Virus record (IMG/VR): IMGVR_UViG_3300020185_000227
Coordinates: 1-26,316 of that record
Origin: a virus
DNA length: 26,316 nucleotides
Direction: 5' to 3' (one strand)
Shown here: positions 4,527-18,363 of the stretch, piece after piece
Position numbering within the stretch: position 1 is the stretch's first letter
Layout of the letters: every line of letters begins with the position of its first letter
Notes under the pieces: model-generated
Told to the model about the DNA's origin: nothing
Seen by the model: the letters and a program-made list of their open reading frames with translations, nothing else
Databases searched by the model: none
Translations under genes and position numbers: made by a program

Positions 4527-4823
4527 TTAAAATTTTGTGTTATTCTGTTGTTTCCTAAAATCCTCAAGCTGTCTAGCTGCAAGTTTTCCAGTTTCAATAA
4601 TTGTATGTAAGTGTTGTTCCACTTTACCTACAACATTATAAGCAATCCAAAGTTTTTCTCTGGTATCACTTTCTTTAGCACCTGTTTTTTCAAGAAGTGC
4701 TTCAGAATAAATTTTTTTAAGAGCTTCTATACTCTCTTGAAAAAGTTTACTCTCCAATATTTGTTTGGCTTCGTTGGATCGGCTGATTTCCACCGCCCTG
4801 TCCGCCTGGTCTTTGATTTGCAT
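4527..4823 (-). CDS. Conserved phage protein overlapping the portal gene (98 aa)
   Basis: 98 residues, mostly helical: a core with A-K-Q-I-L-E-S-K-L-F-Q-E-S-I-E-A-L, then T-R-E-K-L-W-I-A-Y-N-V-V-G-K-V and H-L-H-T-I-I-E-T-G-K-L-A. I recognise the form (ending 'V-x-x-H-L-x-x-I-I-E-T-G-K-L-A') from small genes next to the portal in many phages, but know no function. The start at 4823 has an AAGGA SD about five bases upstream and no later ATG is available, so the gene overlaps the last 77 bases of the portal gene in another frame. A role in head assembly is inferred from position. Confidence 0.65.
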   Translation of the reverse strand: MQIKDQADRAVEISRSNEAKQILESKLFQESIEALKKIYSEALLEKTGAKESDTREKLWIAYNVVGKVEQHLHTIIETGKLAARQLEDFRKQQNNTKF

Positions 4824-6978
4824 TTAATCCTTGTACTTGTTTTTGAAACATATTAGCCGATTTTGTTGCTTGGTCAAGAATTTTACCTTCTTCGGCAATC
4901 ATAATTTTGTCTAAATCAGCATCTGCTTTAATTTTTGCTGTATCAATCTGTGTATTATATTTTAAAGCCATTTCTTTTACTTTTGCTTCAAAATCTAAAG
5001 TCATAGCTTGAGTTTTTTGTTCTAATTCTTTGTATTGTAATTCAATATCAGCAATTTTTCTCTTATTCTCAGCATCAATTCTAGTAAATTCTATCTTCTC
5101 AATAGGAGATGGTTCAGGTGGTTGTGGTGGTGGCATCATTTGTTTACCAATATCAGGATCAACAAAATAACTTTCTACATTTTTAAGTCCTGCGTTCTCA
5201 ACAACTTTGCTTAAAGTATTATAGATATTCTTTAATGTTACCATTGGCATTTCTTTTCCGCCTTGTAATTGGAAAGCTTGTATTTGTCTTTCAAGAATAC
5301 TGTTTAACATAATTGTTTGTTGTTCTTTAGAACCAGTTCCAAGTCCTACAACGATTGAAATATTAAATCTATCTTTCCATTCTGTTGGTTTAATAGGAAT
5401 GTATTGGTTGTTAAGCATAATAATTTTTTCTTTATCTTGATACTTAACCATTAGTTCAAATATTTTTCTAAATAAATCTTTAACTCCTGTTTCTGCAAAG
5501 ACTCTTGCTATCAATTCTGATCTCATTTGTGTTTGCGTCATCAACGCATTTACACCTGTTGCAGTTTTAGAATTTAAACTATCTGCATCTAATCCTTGAG
5601 AAGACTTTGTTACACCAGTTCTTGCTTCTCTAACTGTATCTAAATAATTTAATAAAGGAAAAGCTTGTTGTGAAATTGGTTGAGCTTGTAAAGGTTGCAT
5701 AACTTGATTTGGTGGTTGCTTAGTTCTTACTACTCCACCTGGTCTAGTTGTTAAAAGATCATCCATGTTTACCATACCATCCATGATCGCAACTCTGTTG
5801 TTGTTAGTTAAATACATATTGTCTAACAACTGACGCATTACAGTTGACTTCATTAACTGAACATCCTCAACTAACTCTGAAACTGATCTTCCATAAAATC
5901 TGTGTGGCATTGGAATAGGAGTAACTGTTACAAACGGAACACTATCACAAGGCATATTTTCTAAAATTGTAGAACCGTCATCTCCAGCAGAAACAATTTT
6001 TCTAAGTTCTGCAATACCATCTCCATCATAATCGTATTTAACATAGCATTCATAAATTAAAACTTTTTCTGTAGATTCATCTGTTGCATTATCAACTGGA
6101 TATTCATCTATATCTCTTTGTCTTGTAATTTCTTCGTTGTTGTAAATATCTAATTCTGATTTAGGTAAATCTTTAACTTCATCTTCTGGATAACCCATAG
6201 AAATTAAATCTGACCTTGTTACTAAAACTTTATGTGCAACAAAATCAGCTTCTTCAATTGTCTTTGCGTTTCTATCAATTAAAAATTCTTCAGGTGGAAC
6301 ACTTTCAATTTTTACTTTACCTGTTCTTTTAGTTCTTTTAATTCTGCAATTATATAAAGTAAATTTTGGAACTTGCATATTTTCAATTGCAGGATTTCCT
6401 TGAGCTTCATATTCAGCGACTACTTTTTCAAATTCTTGTTTAGCAGCTTCATCTTCAATTTCTTCTTCTTCAATAAACTCTATTTCATCTTTGCTATCTT
6501 CTAAAGCTTCCTTGTCTTCCAAAGATAAATTTTCATAAGTTTCATATTCTACTGTTTCATTATCATCCCAATAAATTTTTAAGAAACCATTCTTTTCAAT
6601 TAAAGCATCTTTGAAGAAATTATATAATAATTGAAAACCATTATTGTCTTTGTAAAAGACATGATTTAAATAAGCTGTAGCTTGTTCTGCCATAGGCACA
6701 TCTTCACCTGTAACAGGTTCACATCTAACTACCTTATCACTTGCTGTAAATACTCTTAATAAATTTGGTAAGATACTTTCAATCGTATCAGATACATCAG
6801 TTGATACCACTTGTGAACGACCATCTATTTCTGTTCCAAGTTTTTCACCTAAATAATATTCTAAAGATTTTCTTCTTGATTCTGAAAGTTGACCACCTAA
6901 AAAACCTAAAGCATTTTCTATTTGATTTCCAAGTAATGATTGTAATTTAAAATCGGATTCTTCTTTTTTTTTCTTCAT
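4747..6978 (-). CDS. Portal protein (large, SU10/P22-like podovirus type)
   Basis: 743 residues, a normal length for the large portal class. Landmarks: an N-terminal Y-Y-L-G-E-K-L-G-T-E-I-D-G-R-S-Q-V-V-S-T-D-V region; V-P-F-V-T-V-T-P-I-P-M-P-H-R-F-Y-G-R-S with V-E-D-V-Q-L-M-K-S-T-V-M-R-Q-L-L-D-N-M-Y-L-T-N-N-N-R after it, the diagnostic central segment of this family; then a stem/wing region and a long charged helix (about residues 625-690), probably coiled coil. The C-terminus is Gly/Gln/Pro-rich. The portal forms the dodecameric ring through which DNA enters and leaves the head, and docks the terminase encoded one base upstream in the transcript. Its 3' end is shared with the 98-aa gene. Confidence 0.9.
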   Translation of the reverse strand: MKKKKEESDFKLQSLLGNQIENALGFLGGQLSESRRKSLEYYLGEKLGTEIDGRSQVVSTDVSDTIESILPNLLRVFTASDKVVRCEPVTGEDVPMAEQATAYLNHVFYKDNNGFQLLYNFFKDALIEKNGFLKIYWDDNETVEYETYENLSLEDKEALEDSKDEIEFIEEEEIEDEAAKQEFEKVVAEYEAQGNPAIENMQVPKFTLYNCRIKRTKRTGKVKIESVPPEEFLIDRNAKTIEEADFVAHKVLVTRSDLISMGYPEDEVKDLPKSELDIYNNEEITRQRDIDEYPVDNATDESTEKVLIYECYVKYDYDGDGIAELRKIVSAGDDGSTILENMPCDSVPFVTVTPIPMPHRFYGRSVSELVEDVQLMKSTVMRQLLDNMYLTNNNRVAIMDGMVNMDDLLTTRPGGVVRTKQPPNQVMQPLQAQPISQQAFPLLNYLDTVREARTGVTKSSQGLDADSLNSKTATGVNALMTQTQMRSELIARVFAETGVKDLFRKIFELMVKYQDKEKIIMLNNQYIPIKPTEWKDRFNISIVVGLGTGSKEQQTIMLNSILERQIQAFQLQGGKEMPMVTLKNIYNTLSKVVENAGLKNVESYFVDPDIGKQMMPPPQPPEPSPIEKIEFTRIDAENKRKIADIELQYKELEQKTQAMTLDFEAKVKEMALKYNTQIDTAKIKADADLDKIMIAEEGKILDQATKSANMFQKQVQGLNANQRPGGQGGGNQPIQRSQTNIGE

Positions 6979-6979
6979 A

Positions 6980-8248
6980 TTAAATTATATAATTTGTGTT
7001 AACATAAACTTCTTTTTTCCAGTCAGTCATTTTACCACCAACAAAAGTACATCCATATCTAAAAGCATCAGAAGGGTGACTTGCAAAATTATGAATCGGT
7101 CTGTTTTTAAAACATTGATTCTTATCATCCCACTTTTTTTGGTATGCTTTTAATGCCTCAAATCCTTTGTAAGTATTTTTCTTATCAAAGTAACAATTTG
7201 GCAAAGCCTTTCTAACGGATTCAATTCCATCTTCAATAGAAAGTTTAGGTGCAATATCAAAAGAGATACCAAGCTCTAAAGCAGATTCCAATCTTGATTT
7301 TCCAAATGCTCCTAATTCTCTAACTTTTATATCATGTGGAGCTATATGTCTATCATATTTATAAGGTTTGCTTTCCAATAGATCAGCATAGAAGTCAAGA
7401 CCCTCTCCTGATGATTCTTCATAATCAATAACTCTAATTTCATCTCCATGCTTTTGGACAAACCATATTGCTGTAGAATCTTTAAGACCTAAATCCCACC
7501 ATGTTTCTGTTTTTAAATTAGGATCATAAGGAACATCTGTTACTTTTCCTGTTTTTTCTAATTCCTCAATAATAGCACCATAATATGATCCAGTAATTGC
7601 TGCTTGAAATGAACATTCAAATTCTTGTTCATATAAGTCTTCTGACATCATTTGTCTTGCAGCTTCCAATTCCTCTGGATCTAAAATATTAGTTTGAGAT
7701 GATTTGTATAATCCTGCATACCAATTTTTATTTTGTTTAGCTTCCTGATATAATTGAAAAAAATAATTTCTTCCTTTTGGAGTTCCTATAAATACACACC
7801 AACCCTTTCGGTCTGCCAATGCAGGTCTTATAACCTCAGGAAAGATTGTTGGTTTGATAGACTGAGTTTCGTCAAAAACACATCCATCTAAAAATATACC
7901 TCTTAAGGCTTGATCGTTTTCAGCTCCAAGAATTGTAATCCTTGCACCATTTAAAAGATCACATCTTAATTCTGATTCATTAAATTTAGTTCCAGGAATT
8001 TTTCCAGCAAATTGTTTTATGTAGTCCCATGCTGTAGATTTACCCTGTTTAAATGTAGGACTTATGAATGCGTATCTTGGGTTTGGCAAAGAACAAGTAA
8101 GTGCTGCTTTAATCATGTGATTAATCATCATTACTGTCTTTCCAGCTCTCCTGTGCAAAACAAGCACACTAAATCGGTGCTTATCAATTTTTTTATGCAA
8201 AAAATTTTGTAATTCTCTTGGCTTATATGGAATGACAATTTGTTTCAT
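6980..8248 (-). CDS. terL: Terminase large subunit
   Basis: 422 residues. The ATPase half has a Walker A motif of the terminase type (H-R-R-A-G-K-T, residues 32-38), Walker B V-F-D-E (124-127), and coupling motif G-T-P-K-G (155-159). The nuclease half shows W-W-D-L-G-L-K-D-S-T-A (aspartate 252), a second acidic strand at I-D-Y (D275), A-P-H-D-I-K (303-308), and the C-terminal H-P-S-D-A-F-R-Y-G (391-399), which matches the usual third acidic position. The protein pumps DNA into the procapsid through the portal and cuts it. Start and previous stop overlap as ATGA, so it is coupled to the small gene before it. Confidence 0.95.
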   Translation of the reverse strand: MKQIVIPYKPRELQNFLHKKIDKHRFSVLVLHRRAGKTVMMINHMIKAALTCSLPNPRYAFISPTFKQGKSTAWDYIKQFAGKIPGTKFNESELRCDLLNGARITILGAENDQALRGIFLDGCVFDETQSIKPTIFPEVIRPALADRKGWCVFIGTPKGRNYFFQLYQEAKQNKNWYAGLYKSSQTNILDPEELEAARQMMSEDLYEQEFECSFQAAITGSYYGAIIEELEKTGKVTDVPYDPNLKTETWWDLGLKDSTAIWFVQKHGDEIRVIDYEESSGEGLDFYADLLESKPYKYDRHIAPHDIKVRELGAFGKSRLESALELGISFDIAPKLSIEDGIESVRKALPNCYFDKKNTYKGFEALKAYQKKWDDKNQCFKNRPIHNFASHPSDAFRYGCTFVGGKMTDWKKEVYVNTNYII

Positions 8249-9197: not shown

Positions 9198-9237
9198 TTG
9201 ACAAGCTATTGACAATATATTAATAATTGATTATGTT
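9198..9237 (+). promoter_or_regulatory. Early promoter region with tandem TTGACA boxes
   Basis: TTGACA at 9209-9214, 17 bases, then TATGTT at 9232-9237 gives a near-consensus sigma70-type promoter facing the early genes; the predicted start is about 9244. A second TTGACA at 9198-9203 is 17 bases from TAATAA (9221-9226). The ten bases CTATTGACAA are repeated directly at 9195-9204 and 9206-9215, so the two boxes may serve two promoters or be a repeat bound by a regulator. No transcription data are available. Confidence 0.7.
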
Positions 9238-9279
9238 TAATTTATATACAAAAAAACAACTAAAAGAAAGGCAAATAAT

Positions 9280-9753
9280 ATGCAATTAGAAACTAATAAA
9301 ACAAATAAAAAAGATGTTGACGTTGACCAAATTGAAGCTGAAAAAGTTAGAGCTTTACAATCTCACTTAGGCTTAACTGATGATGAAGTTAGTGAAATGA
9401 CTTTGGAAGATGGTTTTTTATACCATGTCAATGGTAATGAGTACAAAGTTTTAACTGATGATGAAGCTGATGATGAAGTAAAAGAATATATTGAGCAATC
9501 AGTATGGGCTTTTAATCCTTCATTTTTAGCGGCTCATGCTAAGGATGGAATTGATGAAGATGTATTTAAGGTTTTAAGTGAAAATTGTGAAAGTTCAAAC
9601 GAAGCTGTTAAATCATTAATTAAAGATTTTGACCATTTTGTTGATGATGCTGTTTTAAGTGATGGTAGGGGTCATTTTATGTCAACTTATGACGGTCATG
9701 AGCATGAAGTTAATATTAAAGGCAATTACTATTATATTTATAGAACTAATTAA
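9280..9753 (+). CDS. Conserved acidic phage protein of unknown function (157 aa)
   Basis: First gene of the early unit, with AGAAAGG about nine bases before ATG. 157 residues, strongly acidic. The middle (Y-K-V-L-T-D-D-E-A-D-D-E-V-K-E-Y-I, then W-A-F-N-P-S-F-L) and C-terminus (D-G-R-G-H-F-M-S-T-Y-D-G-H-E-H-E-V, ending Y-Y-Y-I-Y-R-T-N) are those of a family I have often seen near early or recombination genes of phages and plasmids; its function is not known to me. Strong acidity and first position in the early operon are features of DNA-mimic or anti-defence proteins, but that is speculation. It is soluble, without signal peptide or cysteine motif. Confidence 0.8.
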   Translation: MQLETNKTNKKDVDVDQIEAEKVRALQSHLGLTDDEVSEMTLEDGFLYHVNGNEYKVLTDDEADDEVKEYIEQSVWAFNPSFLAAHAKDGIDEDVFKVLSENCESSNEAVKSLIKDFDHFVDDAVLSDGRGHFMSTYDGHEHEVNIKGNYYYIYRTN

Positions 9754-9771: not shown

Positions 9772-9834
9772 ATGGAATATTTCTATTTAGCTTTAATATT
9801 ATCAATAATAATTACTTTAATTTGGGGGAAATAA
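9772..9834 (+). CDS. Micro-protein with one membrane segment (20 aa)
   Basis: ATG 9772 follows GAAAGG by ten bases and the frame reads MEYFYLALILSIIITLIWGK, almost entirely a hydrophobic helix with one lysine at the end. The stop overlaps the next start (TAATG), supporting translation. Unknown function; tiny early membrane proteins can act on host envelope processes or superinfection, but nothing here shows which. Confidence 0.5.
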   Translation: MEYFYLALILSIIITLIWGK

Positions 9835-9992
9835 TGGAAGACAGTATTTTAAAACTAATAACAATTGGTTACGCTTTGGGAATTGGTATTTGTGGTTTTA
9901 TGGCCTATCTAGGCATTAAAGGCACAAACGAAGCAATTGACCATCAAAATCAAATAATTAAAAAAAGAAATCAATCTATTGACAAGATTTAA
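9834..9992 (+). CDS. Small single-pass membrane protein (52 aa)
   Basis: 52 residues starting MEDSILKLITIGYALGIGIC. A hydrophobic, glycine-rich segment covers about residues 8-29, followed by a polar, basic tail rich in N, Q and K (I-D-H-Q-N-Q-I-I-K-K-R-N-Q). It probably has one membrane helix with the tail on one face. GGGGGA lies upstream inside the preceding micro-gene, and TAATG links the two. Function unknown. The promoter for the next gene lies over the last codons. Confidence 0.6.
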   Translation: MEDSILKLITIGYALGIGICGFMAYLGIKGTNEAIDHQNQIIKKRNQSIDKI

Positions 9993-10007
9993 TATTGATT
10001 ATATATT
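9979..10007 (+). promoter_or_regulatory. Second early promoter (TTGACA-N17-TATATT)
   Basis: TTGACA at 9979-9984, exactly 17 bases, then TATATT at 10002-10007; the start would be near 10014. The -35 is embedded in CTATTGACAAG, the same eleven bases as at 9195-9205. ATTGACA (9978-9984) and TGTCAAT (10007-10013) form 7-bp inverted arms around the whole promoter, a possible operator. It sits at the end of the 52-aa gene and drives the 198-aa gene. Confidence 0.72.
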
Positions 10008-10013
10008 GTCAAT

Positions 10014-10035
10014 AACTAACAAAGAAAGGTAATAA
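10014..10035 (+). repeat. Repeated translation leader, copy 1
   Basis: Twenty-two bases starting AACTAACAAAGAAAGG immediately before the start codon of the 198-aa gene. An identical copy lies at 10633-10654 before the 58-aa gene, and a degenerate one precedes 11279. The copies carry the ribosome site AGAAAGG, and copy 1 begins at the predicted transcription start. Confidence 0.7.
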
Positions 10036-10036
10036 A

Positions 10037-10633
10037 ATGAGCATAAAAAATAATATAGAAACATCAATTAAATTTGGCGGCTTTTATGAATCAATTCACA
10101 GTTCAAATATAGATCATATGGTTGAAGCGTTTGAATATGATTTTGATCATGTTGATTATAAAAAAACTCATCAGGATTATATTGAAAATTATTCATATAA
10201 TTTAAGTGATTATATTTACGATCAATATAAAGTTATTATTAATTTTAATAAGGTAAAATTATATAGCCCTGAATATTATAATTATTCAACTGACACAATT
10301 GATTGTAAAATTAAATCTAATCAAGTTTATGATCTAAATGAAGTTATTAAAAAAGATAAAAACTTTTTAGAATATCTAAAAAAGGCAACTACTAGCTATG
10401 ACGGTTTTATGTCATTTTATACGTTTAATGAAGCGTTAAGCAATAAAAATAATATACTTATTATGTATGTATTGGAATACATCTCAAATAAATACAATGA
10501 TAGTATTTTGTATGATTTGCCTGAATTTAACGTTTATTTAAATAAAGAAGGTCAAAAAATTGAGAATGAAAAAATGGAAGCAAATGAAAGGCAAATAGAA
10601 TTTGAAAGCAATCAATTAAACTTTCAATTTTAA
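10037..10633 (+). CDS. Unknown early phage protein (198 aa)
   Basis: 198 residues, soluble, rich in N, Y, D and I, with no cysteine pair and no motif I recognise. The N-terminal stretch F-G-G-F-Y-E-S-I-H-S-S-N-I-D-H-M resembles the opening of small ArdA-like or 'YubA-like' phage accessory proteins (F-x-G-F-Y-x-S-x-H), a family of unknown role; this likeness is from memory. The C-terminus is a charged helix (I-E-N-E-K-M-E-A-N-E-R-Q-I-E-F-E). It is the first gene after the second early promoter and has AGAAAGG seven bases upstream. An alternative is a purely phage-specific protein. Confidence 0.7.
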   Translation: MSIKNNIETSIKFGGFYESIHSSNIDHMVEAFEYDFDHVDYKKTHQDYIENYSYNLSDYIYDQYKVIINFNKVKLYSPEYYNYSTDTIDCKIKSNQVYDLNEVIKKDKNFLEYLKKATTSYDGFMSFYTFNEALSNKNNILIMYVLEYISNKYNDSILYDLPEFNVYLNKEGQKIENEKMEANERQIEFESNQLNFQF

Positions 10634-10654
10634 ACTAACAAAGAAAGGTAATAA
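10633..10654 (+). repeat. Repeated translation leader, copy 2
   Basis: Identical over 22 bases to 10014-10035. It starts at the last base of the 198-aa gene's stop codon and ends one base before the ATG of the 58-aa gene. It contains AGAAAGG as ribosome site. Confidence 0.7.
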
Positions 10655-10655
10655 C

Positions 10656-10832
10656 ATGACTAAATATAAAATAGTTGACTGGATGAATAATAGAATATTT
10701 CCTGATAAAATTTTTAAAAGCTTTGAGCATGGATGGGAATATATCTATAGCAAATTTGATAATAATGAAGATCATCAGGAATATTATGTTGTTGATGTTA
10801 ATCAAAAAGAAAGGGTAAGCAATGATTATTAA
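10656..10832 (+). CDS. Small conserved phage protein (58 aa)
   Basis: 58 residues, starting MTKYKIVDWMNNRIFPDKIF and continuing with S-F-E-H-G-W-E-Y-I-Y-S-K-F, then H-Q-E-Y-Y-V-V-D-V. I recognise this layout ('Y-x-I-x-D-W-x-x-N', 'F-x-S-F-E-x-A-W-x-x-I', 'E-Y-Y-V-V') as a small family found in many phages and plasmids with no assigned function. AGAAAGG precedes the start by seven bases. It overlaps the next gene by eleven bases. Confidence 0.72.
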   Translation: MTKYKIVDWMNNRIFPDKIFKSFEHGWEYIYSKFDNNEDHQEYYVVDVNQKERVSNDY

Positions 10833-11037
10833 TAATGATAACTTTGATATGGCTTGTCAATTAGCGGATGATATATATTTTAAATTTATTGACAGCTTAG
10901 ACAATAAAAAAGCAAGTGAATTTGTAGTACCTGATAAAGACAATATAGGCTCTACAAAAAACACAGAAAAAGGTAGTGAGCTATATTGGGACATAGAAAA
11001 CACTATTAAAAACACATTAGACAATAGAAAGGTTTAA
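10822..11037 (+). CDS. Unknown early protein (71 aa)
   Basis: 71 residues, acidic and soluble, with no motif I recognise (M-I-I-N-N-D-N-F-D-M-A-C-Q-L-A-D-D-I-Y at the start). GAAAGGG stands 6 bases before the ATG. It starts inside the 58-aa gene and is followed after two bases by the next gene. Function unknown. Confidence 0.65.
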   Translation: MIINNDNFDMACQLADDIYFKFIDSLDNKKASEFVVPDKDNIGSTKNTEKGSELYWDIENTIKNTLDNRKV

Positions 11038-11039
11038 CA

Positions 11040-11207
11040 ATGTACATAATTGATTATCCCAATCAAAGAATAAAAAAGTTTTCTAACAATGAATTAGAAG
11101 ACTTTTTAAATACCATTGTCAAAAAAAGATGGATATTTATTAAAGATAAAAACAAAGCTAAAAAGTTTATCAATCAAGTATCTTTAAATAGAAAGGGTAA
11201 TAAATGA
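11040..11207 (+). CDS. Unknown basic early protein (55 aa)
   Basis: 55 residues starting MYIIDYPNQRIKKFSNNELE, lysine- and asparagine-rich, with a central W-I-F-I-K-D-K-N-K-A-K-K-F strand-helix. AGAAAGG ends inside the previous gene about 6 bases before the ATG. The stop overlaps the next ATG (AAATGA). Function unknown. Confidence 0.6.
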   Translation: MYIIDYPNQRIKKFSNNELEDFLNTIVKKRWIFIKDKNKAKKFINQVSLNRKGNK

Positions 11208-11257
11208 TTGAAGCATGGATAATAATTGAGTTAGTTTTAATAACTTTTTTTATTTAA
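11204..11257 (+). CDS. Possible 17-aa membrane micro-protein
   Basis: The frame reads MIEAWIIIELVLITFFI and stops. GAAAGGG lies eight bases before the ATG, and the start overlaps the previous stop. It is wholly hydrophobic apart from two glutamates. So short a frame can be chance; the ribosome site and coupling are the only support. Confidence 0.35.
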   Translation: MIEAWIIIELVLITFFI

Positions 11258-11278
11258 TAACAAACTAGAAAGGTAAAC

Positions 11279-11338
11279 ATGAAAATAGATAACAATATGC
11301 CAGATAAAGAAAACATAACAGAAAGTGAGGTTAAATGA
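11279..11338 (+). CDS. Possible 19-aa leader peptide or gene remnant
   Basis: AGAAAGG six bases before ATG 11279; the frame reads MKIDNNMPDKENITESEVK, then TGA overlapping the next ATG. Its last residues (T-E-S-E-V-K) and the coupling junction are identical to the end of the following 62-aa gene. It therefore looks like a duplicated coupling cassette or a shortened relative of that gene. Confidence 0.4.
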   Translation: MKIDNNMPDKENITESEVK

Positions 11339-11343
11339 ATAAA
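11317..11343 (+). repeat. 27-bp direct repeat, copy 1
   Basis: Starts AACAGAAAGTGAGG and ends at AATAAA. It contains the end of one frame (T-E-S-E-V-K-stop), a ribosome site and the start M-N-K of the next. Copy 2 is at 11502-11528, 185 bases on. Confidence 0.85.
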
Positions 11344-11523
11344 CAATTTTTATTTTGGAGAGAGGTAAATAAAAGAGTAAGAGAGGAATGTACTATTGAA
11401 GCTAAAGATTTAGATGAAGCAACAAAATTACATAATGAGGGTTATTGTGATTATGTTGAAGTTGATACTTTAGATGAAGATGAAATATTAGATGAAGGAA
11501 CAACAGAAAGTGAGGTTAAATGA
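11335..11523 (+). CDS. Small acidic early protein (62 aa), paralogue of the next gene
   Basis: 62 residues: MNKQFLFWREVNKRVREECT at the start, a middle A-K-D-L-D-E-A-T-K-L-H-N-E-G, then D-Y-V-E-V-D-T-L and an acidic tail. This is the plan of a small family seen in many phages (aromatic N-terminal strand, 'A-x-S/D-x-x-E-A' helix, acidic beta C-terminus), function unknown. The next gene follows the same plan. It is coupled at both ends through the 27-bp repeat. Confidence 0.65.
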   Translation: MNKQFLFWREVNKRVREECTIEAKDLDEATKLHNEGYCDYVEVDTLDEDEILDEGTTESEVK

Positions 11524-11528
11524 ATAAA
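11502..11528 (+). repeat. 27-bp direct repeat, copy 2
   Basis: Identical to 11317-11343 over 27 bases. It spans the junction of the 62-aa and 52-aa genes and supplies the ribosome site and start of the latter. Confidence 0.85.
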
Positions 11529-11678
11529 TACAGAATATATAATAAGCTTATTGGTTATGAGGAATTAGTTGAAGCTGAAAGTGAGCAGGAAGCTGAAATT
11601 CAAGGCTTAGAGGAAGTTGGATCAAATATTCAAGAATACATAGACATAAATGTTAAGCAAATAAACAAAGAGGAATAA
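11520..11678 (+). CDS. Small acidic early protein (52 aa), paralogue of the preceding gene
   Basis: 52 residues: MNKYRIYNKLIGYEELVEAE, then S-E-Q-E-A-E-I-Q-G-L-E-E, then I-Q-E-Y-I-D-I-N-V. The order of elements (M-N-K, aromatic strand, acidic helix with E-A, strand Y-I-D/V) follows the 62-aa protein before it, though side chains differ widely. Starts in copy 2 of the 27-bp repeat. The next gene begins directly after its stop. Function unknown. Confidence 0.65.
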   Translation: MNKYRIYNKLIGYEELVEAESEQEAEIQGLEEVGSNIQEYIDINVKQINKEE

Positions 11679-11927
11679 ATGAAAGTATGGAATATTAGAG
11701 TTACCGATAGGAATGGATTTGATAGCTATTCTTTTTTTCAAGAAGATGAGCCTACCAATCAACAGTTAGAAGTTATTAAAAATATATATCAAAATTCAGG
11801 CAGGTACATTCCTGAAGATATAGAGGATATTGATGTTGAAATAAAAGGTAGTTTTGACAATCAAAATATTCCAACATACGACCAATTAATAGATAATTTG
11901 AAAAATAAGTATGAGGTAAAAAAATGA
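11679..11927 (+). CDS. Unknown early protein (82 aa)
   Basis: 82 residues starting MKVWNIRVTDRNGFDSYSFF, then acidic (E-D-I-E-D-I-D-V-E-I). The opening strand followed by a polar loop and helix resembles other small early proteins here. AGAGG lies about five bases before ATG inside the previous gene. Ends in ATGA overlap with the next gene. Function unknown. Confidence 0.65.
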   Translation: MKVWNIRVTDRNGFDSYSFFQEDEPTNQQLEVIKNIYQNSGRYIPEDIEDIDVEIKGSFDNQNIPTYDQLIDNLKNKYEVKK

Positions 11928-12031
11928 TAATTTTAGGTCATCCAATACATAGAAATGATGTTAAAAAATACTTAGCAATTTTTGGCCTATCTATATTTTT
12001 TATAGTTGTAGTTTTATTTTTATTACTATAA
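11924..12031 (+). CDS. Membrane micro-protein (35 aa)
   Basis: 35 residues: a polar N-terminus (MIILGHPIHRNDVKKY) and a strong C-terminal hydrophobic helix (about residues 17-35, ending V-V-V-L-F-L-L-L). Coupled to the previous gene through ATGA; GAGG stands 8 bases before the start. It would sit in the inner membrane with the short tail in the cytoplasm. Function unknown. Confidence 0.55.
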   Translation: MIILGHPIHRNDVKKYLAIFGLSIFFIVVVLFLLL

Positions 12032-12044
12032 CTACCAAAAAAGA

Positions 12045-12230
12045 ATGGTTAGAAAGCTTCAAACATATTATGAATTTAAACTAAATCTTGAGCTTTGCAA
12101 CGTTAACACATTTGAAAAAGATGATGAAATTAGAAAGTTATACGACCAATATATCAAAGATAGACAACAGACTGTTGTCCAAATGCCAATTAAACATACA
12201 AACAAAGCAATTAAGAAAGCTATTGGCTAG
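12045..12230 (+). CDS. Unknown small basic protein (61 aa), end of the early unit
   Basis: 61 residues, charged, starting MVRKLQTYYEFKLNLELCNV with a helix E-K-D-D-E-I-R-K-L-Y-D-Q-Y-I-K-D-R. Only a weak AAAAGA ribosome site precedes it. A second frame at 12088-12282 overlaps most of it; I prefer this frame because its composition matches neighbouring genes. Last gene before the hairpin that may end the unit. Function unknown. Confidence 0.5.
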   Translation: MVRKLQTYYEFKLNLELCNVNTFEKDDEIRKLYDQYIKDRQQTVVQMPIKHTNKAIKKAIG

Positions 12231-12261
12231 AACTTATTGGAATGTAAAAAGAGGAAGGGGA

Positions 12262-12292
12262 TTAGGGGGTAAGAAAGGTTAAGACCCCCTAA
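12262..12292. terminator. Possible bidirectional terminator hairpin between convergent genes
   Basis: TTAGGGGGT (12262-12270) pairs perfectly with ACCCCCTAA (12284-12292), 9 bp around a 13-base loop. It lies between the end of the rightward early unit (12230) and the end of a leftward gene (12339). A T-run (CTTTTTG) follows ten bases later on the plus strand, and CTTCCTCTTTTT follows on the minus strand. U-tracts are distant, so termination strength is uncertain. Confidence 0.5.
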
Positions 12293-12338
12293 ATCCAAAT
12301 ACTTTTTGAGAAAAGCATTTAATACCTAGATATTGTAG

Positions 12339-12620
12339 TTAACTTTGTCTAGCATACTTCATCTTGAGTTTCTTTTCAATATCTTTTTCTAAATATTTAT
12401 TCTTTTCAACTTCAGACCAATATTCACTAACTATTCTGTCCACATCCTTATCCTTATAGTTATTATTATTTAGATAAGTTAGAAGGTTAATCAGGGGGGG
12501 GCTTTTTGCCTGATTTCTTTTATTACGTTCTATAGCTTTCCTGTAATTGAAATTAGATGACTTTCTAATCTTAGAAAGTTCATATCTTATTCGTTCTATC
12601 GGTACGTATTTCTTATTCAT
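12339..12620 (-). CDS. Unknown basic protein (93 aa)
   Basis: 93 residues, very rich in K, R and N, helical (I-R-Y-E-L-S-K-I-R-K-S, later V-S-E-Y-W-S-E-V-E-K-N-K-Y-L-E-K). No motif I recognise. A run of seven C/G (about 12488-12494) encodes its P-P segment. AGGA lies about 13 bases before the ATG and an A/T-rich promoter-like stretch (TATATATTATAAAG on the minus strand) lies just upstream, next to the GGTACAT palindrome. It is the last gene of the leftward island. Confidence 0.55.
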   Translation of the reverse strand: MNKKYVPIERIRYELSKIRKSSNFNYRKAIERNKRNQAKSPPLINLLTYLNNNNYKDKDVDRIVSEYWSEVEKNKYLEKDIEKKLKMKYARQS

Positions 12621-12669
12621 TACTTAATTATATTCCTAACTAGTTCTTTATAATATATATCTTTATTTA

Positions 12670-12710
12670 GGTACATTCTATGTACCCCCCATCAAGCATT
12701 AAATGTACCC
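12670..12710. promoter_or_regulatory. Operator-like palindrome GGTACAT-TCT-ATGTACC with a third half-site
   Basis: A perfect inverted repeat with 7-bp arms lies at 12670-12686, and a further ATGTACCC copy is at 12703-12710, 23 bases from the first ATGTACCC (12680-12687). It sits in the 127-base gap between the winged-helix gene and the 93-aa gene, upstream of the latter's likely promoter. Such spacing suits binding of a dimeric regulator. Confidence 0.5.
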
Positions 12711-12747
12711 TCCCTCATACACTTGATAGACCCCTCTTAATAAAGTG

Positions 12748-13161
12748 TTAACAATTAATGACCTTTATCCCCTTCTTATTAACAAACTTATCCCTCAACT
12801 TTTGGTTGTATATTTGTTTTTGTTTTTGGGACATAATATTTCTCAACTTAAGGTTGCTTTGCAATATGGATTGGAAGTCTTCGTCTTCTCTAAAATGGTA
12901 TTTGTTTGTCATATTTTTGCCTCTATTTCGCCATGTAATATAGCCGAATAATTGCAATTTATCTAAAGCTCTCACAAGCGTTCTCTTGTCCTTTATTTTA
13001 AGTTTTCTTTTAAGGTAAGCATGACTAGGGGTACACCCTCTAACAGCTGTCTTAAGCCTTCTCAGAAGCATATAGAGGCATTTTTCAACAGGGGTTAAGA
13101 CCTCATTATCCAATAAACTATGCTCAACTTTTAAGAATGGTTCTAATGTATTATTTTTCAT
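12748..13161 (-). CDS. Winged helix-turn-helix protein, replication or transcription regulator (HTH_36-like)
   Basis: 137 residues. Residues about 20-90 make a winged helix: L-T-P-V-E-K-C-L-Y-M-L-L (helix 1), T-P-S-H-A-Y-L-K-R-K-L (helix 2), D-K-R-T-L-V-R-A-L-D-K-L-Q-L-F-G-Y-I (recognition helix), then a beta wing I-T-W-R-N-R-G-K-N-M-T-N-K-Y-H-F. This plan is shared by the HTH_36 family and by N-terminal domains of DnaD- and plasmid Rep-like proteins. A basic C-terminus follows, with no second domain. It could be a replication-associated factor or the regulator of this island. Its start overlaps the upstream nuclease-like gene by 11 bases. Confidence 0.7.
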   Translation of the reverse strand: MKNNTLEPFLKVEHSLLDNEVLTPVEKCLYMLLRRLKTAVRGCTPSHAYLKRKLKIKDKRTLVRALDKLQLFGYITWRNRGKNMTNKYHFREDEDFQSILQSNLKLRNIMSQKQKQIYNQKLRDKFVNKKGIKVINC

Positions 13162-13657
13162 ATTGAAATTGATCTATGGGTTTAAGTTTGTCAAATGGAA
13201 CTGACCAAACATAAGGTCTATTATCATTATTAAAGTTTGTCCAATTACCTACTAAAGATACATCTCTGGCCAGAATATATCCATAAAAATAATACTTAGG
13301 TGTGTCATCACCTACTAAGAAATAATAATCTTCATGGTTGAAAGGCTTTCTAATAATTAAAGATTTGTTTTGCTTTGAATGTAATTGAGATCGTACTTGA
13401 ACAGGCTTATTATTTATAATTAAATCCTTGCCGAAATAATTATTAACTGAATGAGAAAAATAAGATTGCATTTTTTTTGATAATGCCATCTCACAAATTG
13501 TTCCTGAGATACTTCTACCCCATTCCTCATAAATACTAAATTTAGCACCATGACCCCATTTAATATTATTTCTCATGCTTTCAGACTGTCTTAGTAAACC
13601 TGTAAATGCACCAGAAAATATTTCCTCCCATTTTAATTCAACGCTTTCTATGGTCAT
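13151..13657 (-). CDS. Putative PD-(D/E)XK-fold protein, degenerate active site (168 aa)
   Basis: 168 residues. The arrangement is that of a phage PD-(D/E)XK-like family: G-R-S-I-S-G-T-I-C-E-M-A-L-S helix (E56), F-G-K-D-L-I (D78), then V-Q-V-R-S (87-89) where an active enzyme has E/D-x-K, next a strand L-I-I-R-K-P, Y-Y-F-L-V-G and Y-G-Y-I-L-A-R-D-V. The final 'V-W-S-V-P-F-D-K-L-K-P' recalls the 'W-x-V-P-x-x-x-L' ending of that family. With Q-x-R in place of the catalytic pair it may be inactive and DNA-binding only. Family call is tentative. First gene of the leftward island, divergent from the exonuclease gene; no SD is visible. Confidence 0.45.
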   Translation of the reverse strand: MTIESVELKWEEIFSGAFTGLLRQSESMRNNIKWGHGAKFSIYEEWGRSISGTICEMALSKKMQSYFSHSVNNYFGKDLIINNKPVQVRSQLHSKQNKSLIIRKPFNHEDYYFLVGDDTPKYYFYGYILARDVSLVGNWTNFNNDNRPYVWSVPFDKLKPIDQFQYEK

Positions 13658-14709: not shown

Positions 14710-14982
14710 ATGACAGATAAAATAATGATGGAACTTGCAAAGATGCAAACAAAAATAAGAAGTTATGAGTTAGAAATAAAATCATACAAAGATTTACTTC
14801 TTAAAAGAGATGATGAAATAATTGAGCTTAGAAAAAAAGTAGAACTAAAAGATTTAGAAGAAAAAATGATAGCTAAAAACAAAAGTTATTTAGAATTAAA
14901 AGCTTTAAAAGATCAAGAACAAATAGAAGAAAATAAAAAACTAAAGAAAGGTAAAAATGAAAGTAAGCGAAGAAGTAAATAA
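14710..14982 (+). CDS. Coiled-coil protein between exonuclease and annealing protein (90 aa)
   Basis: I start at ATG 14710, five bases after GGAGA; an ATG at 14695 overlapping the exonuclease stop would add five residues. The protein is one long charged helix (M-M-E-L-A-K-M-Q-T-K-I-R-S-Y-E-L-E-I-K onward), probably coiled coil, ending in a lysine/arginine-rich tail (K-K-G-K-N-E-S-K-R-R-S-K). It could bridge the two recombination proteins or be a structural dimer. It overlaps the next gene by 26 bases. Function unknown. Confidence 0.65.
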   Translation: MTDKIMMELAKMQTKIRSYELEIKSYKDLLLKRDDEIIELRKKVELKDLEEKMIAKNKSYLELKALKDQEQIEENKKLKKGKNESKRRSK

Positions 14983-15622
14983 AATACTAAAACAATACAA
15001 CGTTGATCCTAACAAAGCATTATGGAATTGTCATGGCACAGGAATTATGCTTCATAAATATTGTGAAGAAATTGGGGCAAGAGCTGGTGTTGAGGTTATA
15101 GAATATATAACTGAAAAAATTGAAGGAGATAATGTTGTTATTAAATGTCATGCAAAAATGAATGATAAAACTGTTTTTAGTTATGGTGAGTCTAGTCCAA
15201 AAAATTCTAAGAATGCTTATCCTGTTGCTATGGCTGAGAAAAGAGCATTTGATAGATGTGTATTAAAATTGGTAGGTCTTCATGGCCATATTTACGCTAT
15301 GGATGAAATGCCTGACACAGATAGAATAGAAGAAAATCTAAAAGTTGAAACTAAAACTTTTAAACCAACAATTGCTAAACCTAAAATAGTTAAACCTATT
15401 GTTAGTTCAGGAGAAAAAATTGATGACATATACATTGCTACTGAATTAGATGTTATTGAAAAAAATCCTAACAATAAAAATTCTACTACCTTAAGAAGTG
15501 ATTTAGAAAATCTTAAGACTAGAATAAATAAGGCTGGATATTGGGATGCGTTTATCAAGTCTAATAATTTTTTAAAGTTTAACGCATTAAGAAATCAAAT
15601 AACCAAGAAACAAAGGAGTTAA
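14957..15622 (+). CDS. Putative single-strand annealing / recombination protein (221 aa)
   Basis: 221 residues. The N-terminal two thirds match a conserved phage family I recall from alphaproteobacterial phages: M-L-H-K-Y-C-E-E-I-G-A-R-A-G-V, F-S-Y-G-E-S-S-P-K-N-S-K-N-A-Y-P, then V-A-M-A-E-K-R-A-F-D-R-C-V-L-K-L and G-L-H-G-H-I-Y-A-M-D-E. A beta sheet followed by a basic helix with A-E-K-R-A recalls Rad52/ERF-type annealing proteins, and it stands next to a RecB-like exonuclease; both are indirect. The C-terminal third (from about 125) is linker plus a small helical part (L-K-T-R-I-N-K-A-G-Y-W-D-A-F). AGAAAGG precedes the start. Alternative: a non-annealing DNA-binding partner. Confidence 0.5.
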   Translation: MKVSEEVNKILKQYNVDPNKALWNCHGTGIMLHKYCEEIGARAGVEVIEYITEKIEGDNVVIKCHAKMNDKTVFSYGESSPKNSKNAYPVAMAEKRAFDRCVLKLVGLHGHIYAMDEMPDTDRIEENLKVETKTFKPTIAKPKIVKPIVSSGEKIDDIYIATELDVIEKNPNNKNSTTLRSDLENLKTRINKAGYWDAFIKSNNFLKFNALRNQITKKQRS

Positions 15623-17075: not shown

Positions 17076-17480
17076 ATGTCTTCAAAAAAAAAAGAAATAA
17101 ATAAAATAACATTTGATAAGCACATAGGAATAAGATTAAGAAATCTTAGAGTAAAAAATAAATATACTCAAACAAGAATTTCTAAGGTCTTAGGTTGTTC
17201 TTTTCAACAAATTCAAAAATATGAAAGAGGTATGAATGGATTAAGTTCATTCTTGCTTGGAAAATTAGCAGTCTTTTTTAATGTTTCGTTAGAACATTTT
17301 TATGAAGATTATGATTTTAAAAATCACACTAGCACATTAGGTTATGAAAATATGTACCCTGAAATCAACAGAGGTAATCAGGTAAGAAATGAAAATTTAT
17401 ATCCTAACCCTAATTCTTATAAGGAATTGTCTGATCCTGTAAGTGAATTAATTTCCTCTAATTTAAAAATAGAACAGTAG
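17076..17480 (+). CDS. XRE-family transcriptional regulator
   Basis: 134 residues. The HTH covers about residues 14-76: H-I-G-I-R-L-R-N-L-R-V-K-N-K-Y-T-Q, I-S-K-V-L-G-C-S-F-Q-Q-I-Q-K-Y-E-R-G, and L-L-G-K-L-A-V-F-F-N-V-S-L-E-H-F-Y. The 'F-Q-Q-I-Q-K-Y-E-R-G-x-N' helix is the form common in Alphaproteobacteria. The C-terminal half is polar and low complexity, with no peptidase domain. It ends the rightward operon and could repress either divergent promoter; the operators are not shown. AAAGGATGGGGATAG precedes the start. Confidence 0.85.
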   Translation: MSSKKKEINKITFDKHIGIRLRNLRVKNKYTQTRISKVLGCSFQQIQKYERGMNGLSSFLLGKLAVFFNVSLEHFYEDYDFKNHTSTLGYENMYPEINRGNQVRNENLYPNPNSYKELSDPVSELISSNLKIEQ

Positions 17481-17737: not shown

Positions 17738-17899
17738 TTATTTTTTCTTAGCAGTTCTCTTTGCTTTTCTTAATGCTTTATCAGAAACTGTTCCTTTACC
17801 TGGATTACTTTTACCAGACTTTTTTTTCTTATTCATATAATAGTACAATCCTTTTTTGACTGTACGACCATCTTTAGTTTTGTGATAACCTTTTTTCAT
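17738..17899 (-). CDS. Lysine-rich small phage protein (53 aa)
   Basis: 53 residues, starting MKKGYHKTKDGRTVKKGLYY; about half are K, R or G. The parts K-K-G-L-Y-Y-Y-M-N-K and G-K-G-T-V-S-D-K-A are, from memory, repeatedly found in small genes near the lysis region of pelagiphage-like genomes. An internal ATG at 17836 in the same frame would give a shorter form. The start overlaps the previous stop by one base (TAATG). Strong basicity suggests DNA binding. Confidence 0.68.
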   Translation of the reverse strand: MKKGYHKTKDGRTVKKGLYYYMNKKKKSGKSNPGKGTVSDKALRKAKRTAKKK

Positions 17900-17994
17900 T
17901 ATTTCTTTTTCTTATATTTTTTCATTTTAGCTTTTTTTGCAGCTGCCTTACCTTTTTTAGTGTAAGGGTATTTTTTTCCATTAACCATTGGCAT
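17899..17994 (-). CDS. Lysine-rich micro-protein (31 aa)
   Basis: 31 residues, starting MPMVNGKKYPYTKKGKAAAK and ending in K-K-K-K. I recognise 'M-P-M-V-N-G-K-K-x-P-Y-T' as a small protein common in uncultured marine phages, role unknown. AAAGGAG lies 8 bases before ATG, one of the clearest ribosome sites here. The AAKKA pattern is histone-tail-like. Confidence 0.72.
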   Translation of the reverse strand: MPMVNGKKYPYTKKGKAAAKKAKMKKYKKKK

Positions 17995-17995
17995 A

Positions 17996-18130
17996 TTATT
18001 TTCTCCTTTTATGTTTACCCATATACCATTCAGAAGGTTCATAGTTCCATCTTTTACCATGATGACCTCTTAAATCGGCATATAACATTCTTAACTTAAC
18101 TATACTTTTTATCAAGAATTTTTTTACCAT
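17996..18130 (-). CDS. Small basic protein (44 aa)
   Basis: 44 residues from ATG 18130-18128 to TAA 17998-17996, starting MVKKFLIKSIVKLRMLYADL; the C-terminus has H-H-G-K-R-W-N-Y-E-P-S-E-W and ends K-H-K-R-R-K. It overlaps the end of the upstream gene by 7 bases and its tail lies over the next gene's ribosome site, so the genes are interlocked. Function unknown. Confidence 0.6.
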   Translation of the reverse strand: MVKKFLIKSIVKLRMLYADLRGHHGKRWNYEPSEWYMGKHKRRK

Positions 18131-18363
18131 TTCTTACAGCTCCAATATCTAGCACTAAATACATCTTTAGCGGTAGCACATTTATGTCTAGCTCTAAAAG
18201 ATTTTCGTCTTGCAGGAATGTTTTTCTTTATAGTCATATTGGCATCACCATATCTAATAATCTTTTCCTTGCCACCCTTACAAGCTTTAACTACAAATTT
18301 CTTACCACCTGATATTTGTCTTTTAGGTGAATTACATTTCATTTTAGATTTATCTATTGCCAT
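18124..18363 (-). CDS. Conserved phage protein, DUF5872-like (79 aa)
   Basis: 79 residues, basic. The motifs M-K-C-N-S-P-K-R, V-K-A-C-K-G-G-K-E-K-I-I-R-Y-G, R-R-K-S-F-R-A-R-H and S-A-R-Y-W-S-C-K-K-W follow the order I know from the DUF5872 family of small cyanophage and pelagiphage proteins. Four cysteines (residues 9, 28, 62 and 76, counted by eye) suggest a metal site or disulphides; many relatives lack them. It overlaps the endolysin gene by 10 bases. Function unknown; may be a virion-associated or DNA-binding protein. Confidence 0.7.
   Translation of the reverse strand: MAIDKSKMKCNSPKRQISGGKKFVVKACKGGKEKIIRYGDANMTIKKNIPARRKSFRARHKCATAKDVFSARYWSCKKW

Follow-up and report, generated by a model that had tools for sequence, protein, structure and literature searches.

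In the 26,316-base virus record IMGVR_UViG_3300020185_000227, referred to in its entirety as the window, 13 small open reading frames at 9772-12230 make up a cassette array with fixed ends, a new finding; in the first early operon of this phage, a SAR11 podophage, the cluster is the part that varies. We interpret it, with a probability of about 0.68, as a hypervariable accessory stretch of that operon, in which one-gene cassettes lying between the fixed ends are exchanged at sequences associated with gene starts. New here are a fixed promoter element, two such junction sequences and a family of 198-amino-acid (aa) proteins whose modelled structure appears novel. The original prediction had singled out the cluster as early, coupled accessory genes and as the part of this DNA most likely to be undescribed. 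It was right to flag the cluster, for reasons that were only partly right: we do find small early genes for uncharacterised accessory proteins, all on one strand, pointing away from the terminase, preceded by promoter-like sites and turning over rapidly, but "undescribed" needs qualifying, because in the cultured phages HTVC204P and Lederberg EXVC029P a cluster equivalent to this one is already annotated, its products as hypothetical proteins.

Fixed ends and a variable middle

Gene order was compared among relatives collected with the terminase and the 157-aa, 198-aa, 82-aa and 58-aa proteins, a check that the original prediction had proposed, and the outcome was the same ends with different middles: at the left stands the gene at 9280, at the right the block of 82-, 35- and 61-aa genes (Table 1), and what lies between changes from phage to phage. 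The 9280 gene has a homolog in Lederberg EXVC029P, in the same place beside TerL. Between the window and one related contig (L110), the 62-aa gene has 0.5 silent changes in 31 sites and the 82-aa gene 19 in 42, which argues that the 62-aa gene was exchanged recently and the 82-aa gene was not. The sole megablast match of the region to named phages, window 11332-11502 in HTVC204P, spans this same gene, from 3 nucleotides (nt) before its start to 1 nt before the next junction. The clusters beside TerL in HTVC204P (gp01-gp10) and Lederberg EXVC029P (27-35) resemble that of the window in place, strand arrangement and gene size, two cassettes are common to the window and the former, at 85% and 92% identity, and with the latter the window shares the 9280 gene; most cassettes differ, however, and the 198-, 71-, 55- and 82-aa proteins were not found in either.

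A promoter-like element, P2, accompanies the array. The left arm of its inverted repeat is the -35 box, with TATATT 17 bases further on. We found 19 such sites in 244 kb of relatives, all of 34 bp with 22 bases between the arms, where about 0 are expected. P2 stands right after the 9280 gene in relatives; in the window it precedes the 198-aa gene, and the 20- and 52-aa frames separate it from 9280. The first gene behind it is of at least eight kinds among the relatives (198-aa, 104-aa, 83-aa, a relative of the 58-aa gene, an 82-aa gene beginning MIKKIVNK, a 39-aa relative of the 52-aa gene, 93-aa and 108-aa; a 100-aa gene in L053). A repressor could bind the P2 repeat, for example the HTH_3 (helix-turn-helix) repressor-like protein encoded at 17076-17480; no integrase was noticed in the phage.

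The phage itself is a mosaic podophage of SAR11 (Pelagibacter), an abundant marine bacterium, since its portal protein (4747-8248 region) has 82% identity to that of Pelagibacter phage HTVC106P, whereas the adjoining large terminase has 60% (and 53% to HTVC204P); mosaicism is thus visible between neighbouring packaging genes at 4747-8248. From about 9175 the late genes run to the left, and from 9280 the small early genes run to the right, so that the early cluster is divergent from the terminase, as it is in the cultured Lederberg EXVC029P. Between the divergent TerS and the 9280 gene lie the overlapping P1 sites, with 11 and 10 of 12 consensus matches. A group at 12339-13657, which includes a helix-turn-helix replication-initiator-like protein, is convergent to the early genes, and the hairpin at 12259-12296 between the two operons is presumed to end the early transcript. 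Most likely, host RNA polymerase would read the operon from P1 and P2 to this hairpin.

Start-associated junction sequences

Why should unrelated genes share their starts? Two sequences, type A and type B, each join non-homologous genes in the window. The two type A copies, the first of which reads AACTAACAAAGAAAGGTAATAAAATGA, are alike in 26 of 27 bases, which occurred in 0 of 100 shuffles; their pattern is AACTAACAAAGAAAGGTAATAA[A/C]ATGA, with the core AACTAACAAAGAAAGGTAA, and looser copies lie at 9258, 11263 and 14939. The last of these (14939-14959) lies outside the cluster, before the gene at 14957, whose 221-aa product is a probable annealing protein, judged by its place after a nuclease-like gene and by the gene order of HTVC204P; an 85% repeat with the cluster was seen here as well. 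Type B, ACAGAAAGTGAGGTTAAATGAATAAA, is an exact 26-bp duplicate, again found in 0 of 100 shuffles. Among relatives, all 32 copies of its motif AGAAAG[T/C]GAGG are followed by an ATG, and the genes that they introduce are of about 20 kinds; in the complete HTVC204P genome all three type B copies fall within the early cluster.

At 28 of 31 sites the upstream gene reads type B as GAA-AGY-GAG, with the result that unrelated proteins end in ESEV, ESEE or ESED. These many shared ends raised the candidate of a functional C-terminal ESE tag, which we set aside. In the 71-aa family the ending is DNRKV in the window, where an A-type site follows, and DKKESEV in a relative (L010), where the next site is B-type; its tail switches with the junction type, and the C-terminal tail thus follows the junction and not the protein.

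On the reading that we favour, the middle would be a row of interchangeable one-gene cassettes, each beginning at type A or type B. The core of type A, and type B, would serve for ribosome binding; type B, translated as part of the preceding gene's 3' end, would couple the two genes; and the junctions would provide short shared stretches where cassettes exchange. Could the junctions instead be merely strong ribosome-binding sites kept by selection, with cassettes turning over by illegitimate recombination in which they play no role? We give this some credence, short of even. Both motifs hold Shine-Dalgarno letters (AAAGG or GAGG), and the frame of the 28 B sites places the upstream stop on the next start, a coupling geometry that could suffice to preserve them. 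However, when the junction sequence AGAAAGTGAGG is set beside the plain 10-base run AGAAAGGAGG, it is the plain run that would presumably pair better with the usual 16S tail of alphaproteobacteria, which we take to be CCTCCTTTCT, and yet the plain run hardly occurs, with 2 copies and neither of them at a start, whereas the bulged AGAAAG[TC]GAGG has 32 copies. Identity between copies also reaches beyond the pairing core on both sides, and the 62-aa cassette common to the window and HTVC204P starts and stops at junctions, all of which argues for a part in exchange.

The closest parallel lies in the start-associated sequences (SAS) and extended SAS (ESAS) of cluster K mycobacteriophages, for which a translation signal and possible recombination target have been proposed (PMC3203893). 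As in cluster K, a short repeat stands just upstream of the starts of many non-homologous genes, and it combines Shine-Dalgarno letters with further conserved letters. The differences are equally clear: SAS is a 13-bp sequence, GGGATAGGAGCCC, whereas AGAAAG[TC]GAGG or AACTAACAAAGAAAGG is found here, in phages of a different host; there are two types here, with type B usually inside the 3' end of the upstream gene; and about half of SAS copies are associated with an inverted repeat (PMC3203893), whereas a single 34-bp inverted repeat, P2, stands here before one type A copy. Because the letters and the distribution of inverted repeats differ, we regard the junctions as working like SAS and do not file them as SAS. 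Early regulons of archaeal viruses likewise hold small early genes that are unrelated to one another and follow a strongly conserved regulatory sequence, which has served there to predict anti-defence genes (PMC11065993). In those viruses, though, every gene has a promoter copy to itself, whereas here a single promoter element stands ahead of several genes, and it is at translation starts that the repeated element sits.

A bolder version, that the junctions and P2 form a dedicated platform through which SAR11 phages exchange single early genes by homologous recombination at the junctions, seems to us unlikely. If it were true, any junction-flanked gene dropped into the array would at once be transcribed, translated and coupled, the phage's own annealing protein (14957-15622) would possibly act on the junctions, and the array would be the phage equivalent of an integron that has no integrase.

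Several observations weigh against the interpretation of the cluster as an early array of accessory cassettes exchanged at junctions. Weaker similarity blocks cross several cassettes (for example in L009, L010 and L115), which means that longer segments are exchanged or inherited too, and base-level breakpoint mapping covers two cases. A scan for promoters found 34 sites against 33.4 expected in shuffles; promoter-like sites as a class are thus not enriched, and we argue for P2 only, from its conservation. Early timing is deduced from position together with P1 and P2, and the scan did not count the hairpin at 12259-12296 among intrinsic terminators. The ten longest proteins had no significant functional match in Pfam, PHROGs or PADLOC, the last of which covers defence and not counter-defence, and no fold of known function emerged for the cluster proteins among the models searched.

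The frames and their proteins

The 13 frames have the lengths originally listed: 20, 52, 198, 58, 71, 55, 17, 19, 62, 52, 82, 35 and 61 codons. The count of about fourteen is reached only if the upstream 157-aa gene is included. Coupling is real, although "nearly all" overstated it, as six of the 12 joints overlap (four ATGA overlaps of 4 nt, one TAATG overlap of 1 nt and one of 11 nt); at two more the frames abut (0 and +2 nt), and the remaining four are separated by 13-44 nt. Similarly, a GAAAGG-type ribosome site, originally claimed for every frame, precedes seven of the 13 starts (AGAAAGG or GAAAGG before 9772, 10037, 10656, 10822, 11040, 11204 and 11279) and is absent from the other six: GTGAGG or GAGG precedes 11335, 11520, 11679 and 11924, the 9834 start has a weak GGGGG, and no ribosome site could be recognised in the sequence upstream of 12045. 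In 244 kb of related early-region DNA, AGAAAGG occurs 215 times against 43 expected, and 159 of these occurrences stand just before an ATG. The single hydrophobic helices proposed at 9772, 9834 and 11924 were borne out, and the product of the 17-aa frame at 11204 is a fourth. The original statement that no known replication gene is among the frames agrees with the searches of the ten longest proteins.

Table 1. Features of the early cluster and its surroundings, in window coordinates; pN/pS is given for frames of at least 35 aa.
Feature	Positions	Strand	pN/pS	Evidence
P1 promoter-like site(s)	9198..9237	+		TTGACA-18-AATAAT and TTGACA-17-TATGTT, overlapping
157-aa acidic protein, fixed 5' gene (outside 9772-12230)	9280..9753	+	0.34	15 distinct relatives
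20-aa hydrophobic frame (doubtful)	9772..9834	+		TAATG-coupled to next gene; AAAGG site; hydrophobicity
52-aa single-helix membrane protein	9834..9992	+	0.33	7 distinct relatives; directly behind P2 in relatives
P2 promoter-like site TTGACA-17-TATATT	9979..10012	+		Inside 34-bp inverted repeat TTGACA-N22-TGTCAA
Type A start-associated sequence, copy 1	10014..10040	+		26/27 bases shared with copy 2
198-aa protein, GFYxSxH...SPxYYNYxTDxI...SYDGFxSFY family	10037..10633	+	0.54	148 viral loci
Type A start-associated sequence, copy 2	10633..10659	+		26/27 bases shared with copy 1
58-aa cassette protein	10656..10832	+	0.19	16 distinct relatives; 85% identity to HTVC204P gp03
71-aa cassette protein	10822..11037	+	0.37	
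55-aa basic cassette protein	11040..11207	+	0.34	13 distinct relatives
17-aa hydrophobic frame	11204..11257	+		Overlaps conserved DNA element
19-aa frame (probable exchange scar)	11279..11338	+		Bounded by both junction types; last 7 codons = duplicated junction
Type B start-associated sequence, copy 1	11318..11343	+		Exact 26-bp duplicate
62-aa acidic cassette protein	11335..11523	+	0.21	92% identity to HTVC204P gp06
Type B start-associated sequence, copy 2	11503..11528	+		Exact 26-bp duplicate
52-aa acidic cassette protein	11520..11678	+	0.45	3 distinct relatives
82-aa protein, fixed 3' block	11679..11927	+	0.18	19 distinct relatives
35-aa single-helix membrane protein, fixed 3' block	11924..12031	+	0.62	MIIxGxxIHR head
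61-aa basic protein, fixed 3' block	12045..12230	+	0.43	25 distinct relatives
Strong hairpin between convergent operons	12259..12296	.		Surrounding 81 nt -23.1 kcal/mol, z -3.4

Conservation across relatives, on which the original prediction had staked the short frames, was found for ten of the 13. In these ten, all of at least 35 aa, the ratio of nonsynonymous to synonymous differences (pN/pS), taken by comparing the codons of relatives with those of the window, is 0.18-0.62, below one throughout, which indicates purifying selection. Within the fixed 3' block, the 82-aa product is modelled by AlphaFold2 as beta-beta-alpha-beta-alpha (predicted local distance difference test score, pLDDT, 79.5), and this model has many weak matches to uncharacterised phage proteins of 50-90 aa, none with an E-value below 0.001; the 35-aa gene stands behind the 82-aa gene in about 16 distinct contigs, its product keeping its head and helix throughout; and the 61-aa protein has a fragment match in HTVC112P and HTVC028P. 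At the other end, the 157-aa protein weakly matches phrog_15770, of unknown function, and its relatives include proteins of phages that infect Gram-positive bacteria (Alicyclobacillus phage KKP_3916, 43%; Bacillus phage BM15, 29%). Elsewhere in the window, the minus strand at 17738-18363 encodes three small and very basic proteins, with net charges from +14 to +20.

The three shortest frames behave differently, and we consider it rather probable that some listed frames are not genes, the 19- and 20-aa frames being by-products of junctions and the 17-aa frame marking a conserved element of DNA or RNA ahead of the 82-aa gene. Apart from an identical contig of the same phage, nothing related to the 19- or 20-aa frame was found; the 19-aa frame is probably a scar of cassette exchange, and the reality of the 20-aa frame is doubtful. 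The 17-aa frame behaves in the conservation test as a conserved DNA element: a DNA pattern found it in 11 viral contigs, one of them the same phage, and in relatives it lies directly before the 82-aa gene. Its silent sites hardly vary (pS 0.095, pN 0.161, pN/pS 1.69), whereas the gene next to it in these contigs has a pS of about 0.4-0.5; ten aligned versions, which are too few, short and related for a firm test, vary mainly at first and second positions. On the other hand, the frame is open with a start in all ten versions, and every change keeps its hydrophobicity. Judged from its pattern of variation, the stretch may be an element of DNA or RNA instead of a peptide, or may be both. As for a promoter inside it, inspection found no convincing -35/-10 pair kept in relatives. 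Another contig (L101, at 4640) has a 16-residue hydrophobic start, MIEILLITEIILIFFF, that resembles the 17-aa frame, with quite different DNA (E-value 0.25); if real, this start would favour a peptide.

The largest cassette encodes the 198-aa protein, whose family was found by pattern and tblastn searches at the viral loci of Table 1 and also has 17 loci in bacterial assemblies. A 42-sequence alignment (A2) gave the invariant residues F13, G15, F16, Y17, S19, H21, P78, Y81, N82, D86 and S126, all of which the window's protein has. Its AlphaFold2 model is confident (pLDDT 91; predicted template-modelling score 0.84), with no match in the PDB better than an E-value of 0.2; CutA-like PDB matches were rejected at a TM-score of 0.15, and seven uncharacterised phage folds match at an E-value below 0.001, so that the family appears, on its model, to be structurally novel. 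The scan of every family member returned only function-less PHROGs and chance matches: phrog_37559 and phrog_8431, both of unknown function, are matched by 14 and 11 of the 42 members, and the window's own protein matches neither. In 32 of the 83 loci the 2.5-kb flank includes a large terminase, and as this is of two types, an early, packaging-adjacent place has been kept across phage lineages. The 71-aa family recurs in 198-aa loci of distant phages (L144, L180, L183, L184, L190 and L202). Among the relatives in bacterial assemblies the neighbours are mixed and no common partner emerged. In Porphyromonas somerae (L235 4743-6708) the relative at 5932-6708 lies beside a similar-looking protein at 4743-5540, with MORN-repeat genes around them, and in Bacteroides sp. 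224 (L234 5839-9112) it adjoins a weakly DpnD/PcfM-like protein and a C5 cytosine methylase.

Possible roles and significance

What might such proteins do? Early, fast-turnover, promoter-fed small genes are the usual setting of counter-defence and takeover genes, and the micro-proteins of this cluster would most likely act at the first stage of infection, by binding host factors or blocking them. The likeliest role, though an unproven one, would be host takeover or counter-defence, split about evenly between the two; two precedents point this way, the early genes of pelagiphage HTVC027P (PMC12753301) and those of archaeal viruses (PMC11065993).

Counter-defence in the narrow sense would mean inhibitors of restriction, CRISPR or abortive infection, and we entertain it tentatively. 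DNA-mimic inhibitors are strongly acidic, and so are the 62-aa protein (net charge -11) and the 52-aa protein (-8). In archaeal viruses, anti-defence genes are among the small, mutually unrelated early genes that follow a common regulatory sequence, and it was as small, early, fast-turnover genes in that setting that counter-defence genes were found (PMC11065993). Here, however, there is no match to a known family in Pfam, PHROGs or PADLOC and no predicted partner. The DpnD/PcfM-like family PF14207 has no match in the 62-aa (11335) or 52-aa (11520) protein. A different cassette, in L013, matches PF14207 with an E-value of 0.005 and 17.2 bits, below the curated cut-off of 25 bits.

Alternatively, the proteins may steer host transcription, translation or metabolism, and not defence, a possibility to which we give about the same guarded weight. 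Their place in the first operon suggests this, as does the 198-aa family, kept near terminase genes of two types (32 of 83 loci). In HTVC027P, all early-expressed genes are of unknown function, and, as that phage lacks its own RNA polymerase, they have been proposed to start phage transcription (PMC12753301). Against this, the match of the 62-aa protein to phrog_1307 (RNA polymerase inhibitor) is not significant (E-value 0.055).

SAR11 phages are among the most numerous marine viruses, and the genes that they express first are almost all of unknown function. The promoter element and the junctions offer a practical handle for listing such early genes from metagenomes, comparable to that available for archaeal viruses (PMC11065993). 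The 198-aa family, being widespread, confidently modelled and unlike any solved structure, provides a concrete target for tests of function, and the cluster as a whole is a good place to seek new phage tools against hosts. Moreover, the junctions allow a test of how mosaic phage genomes come together gene by gene.

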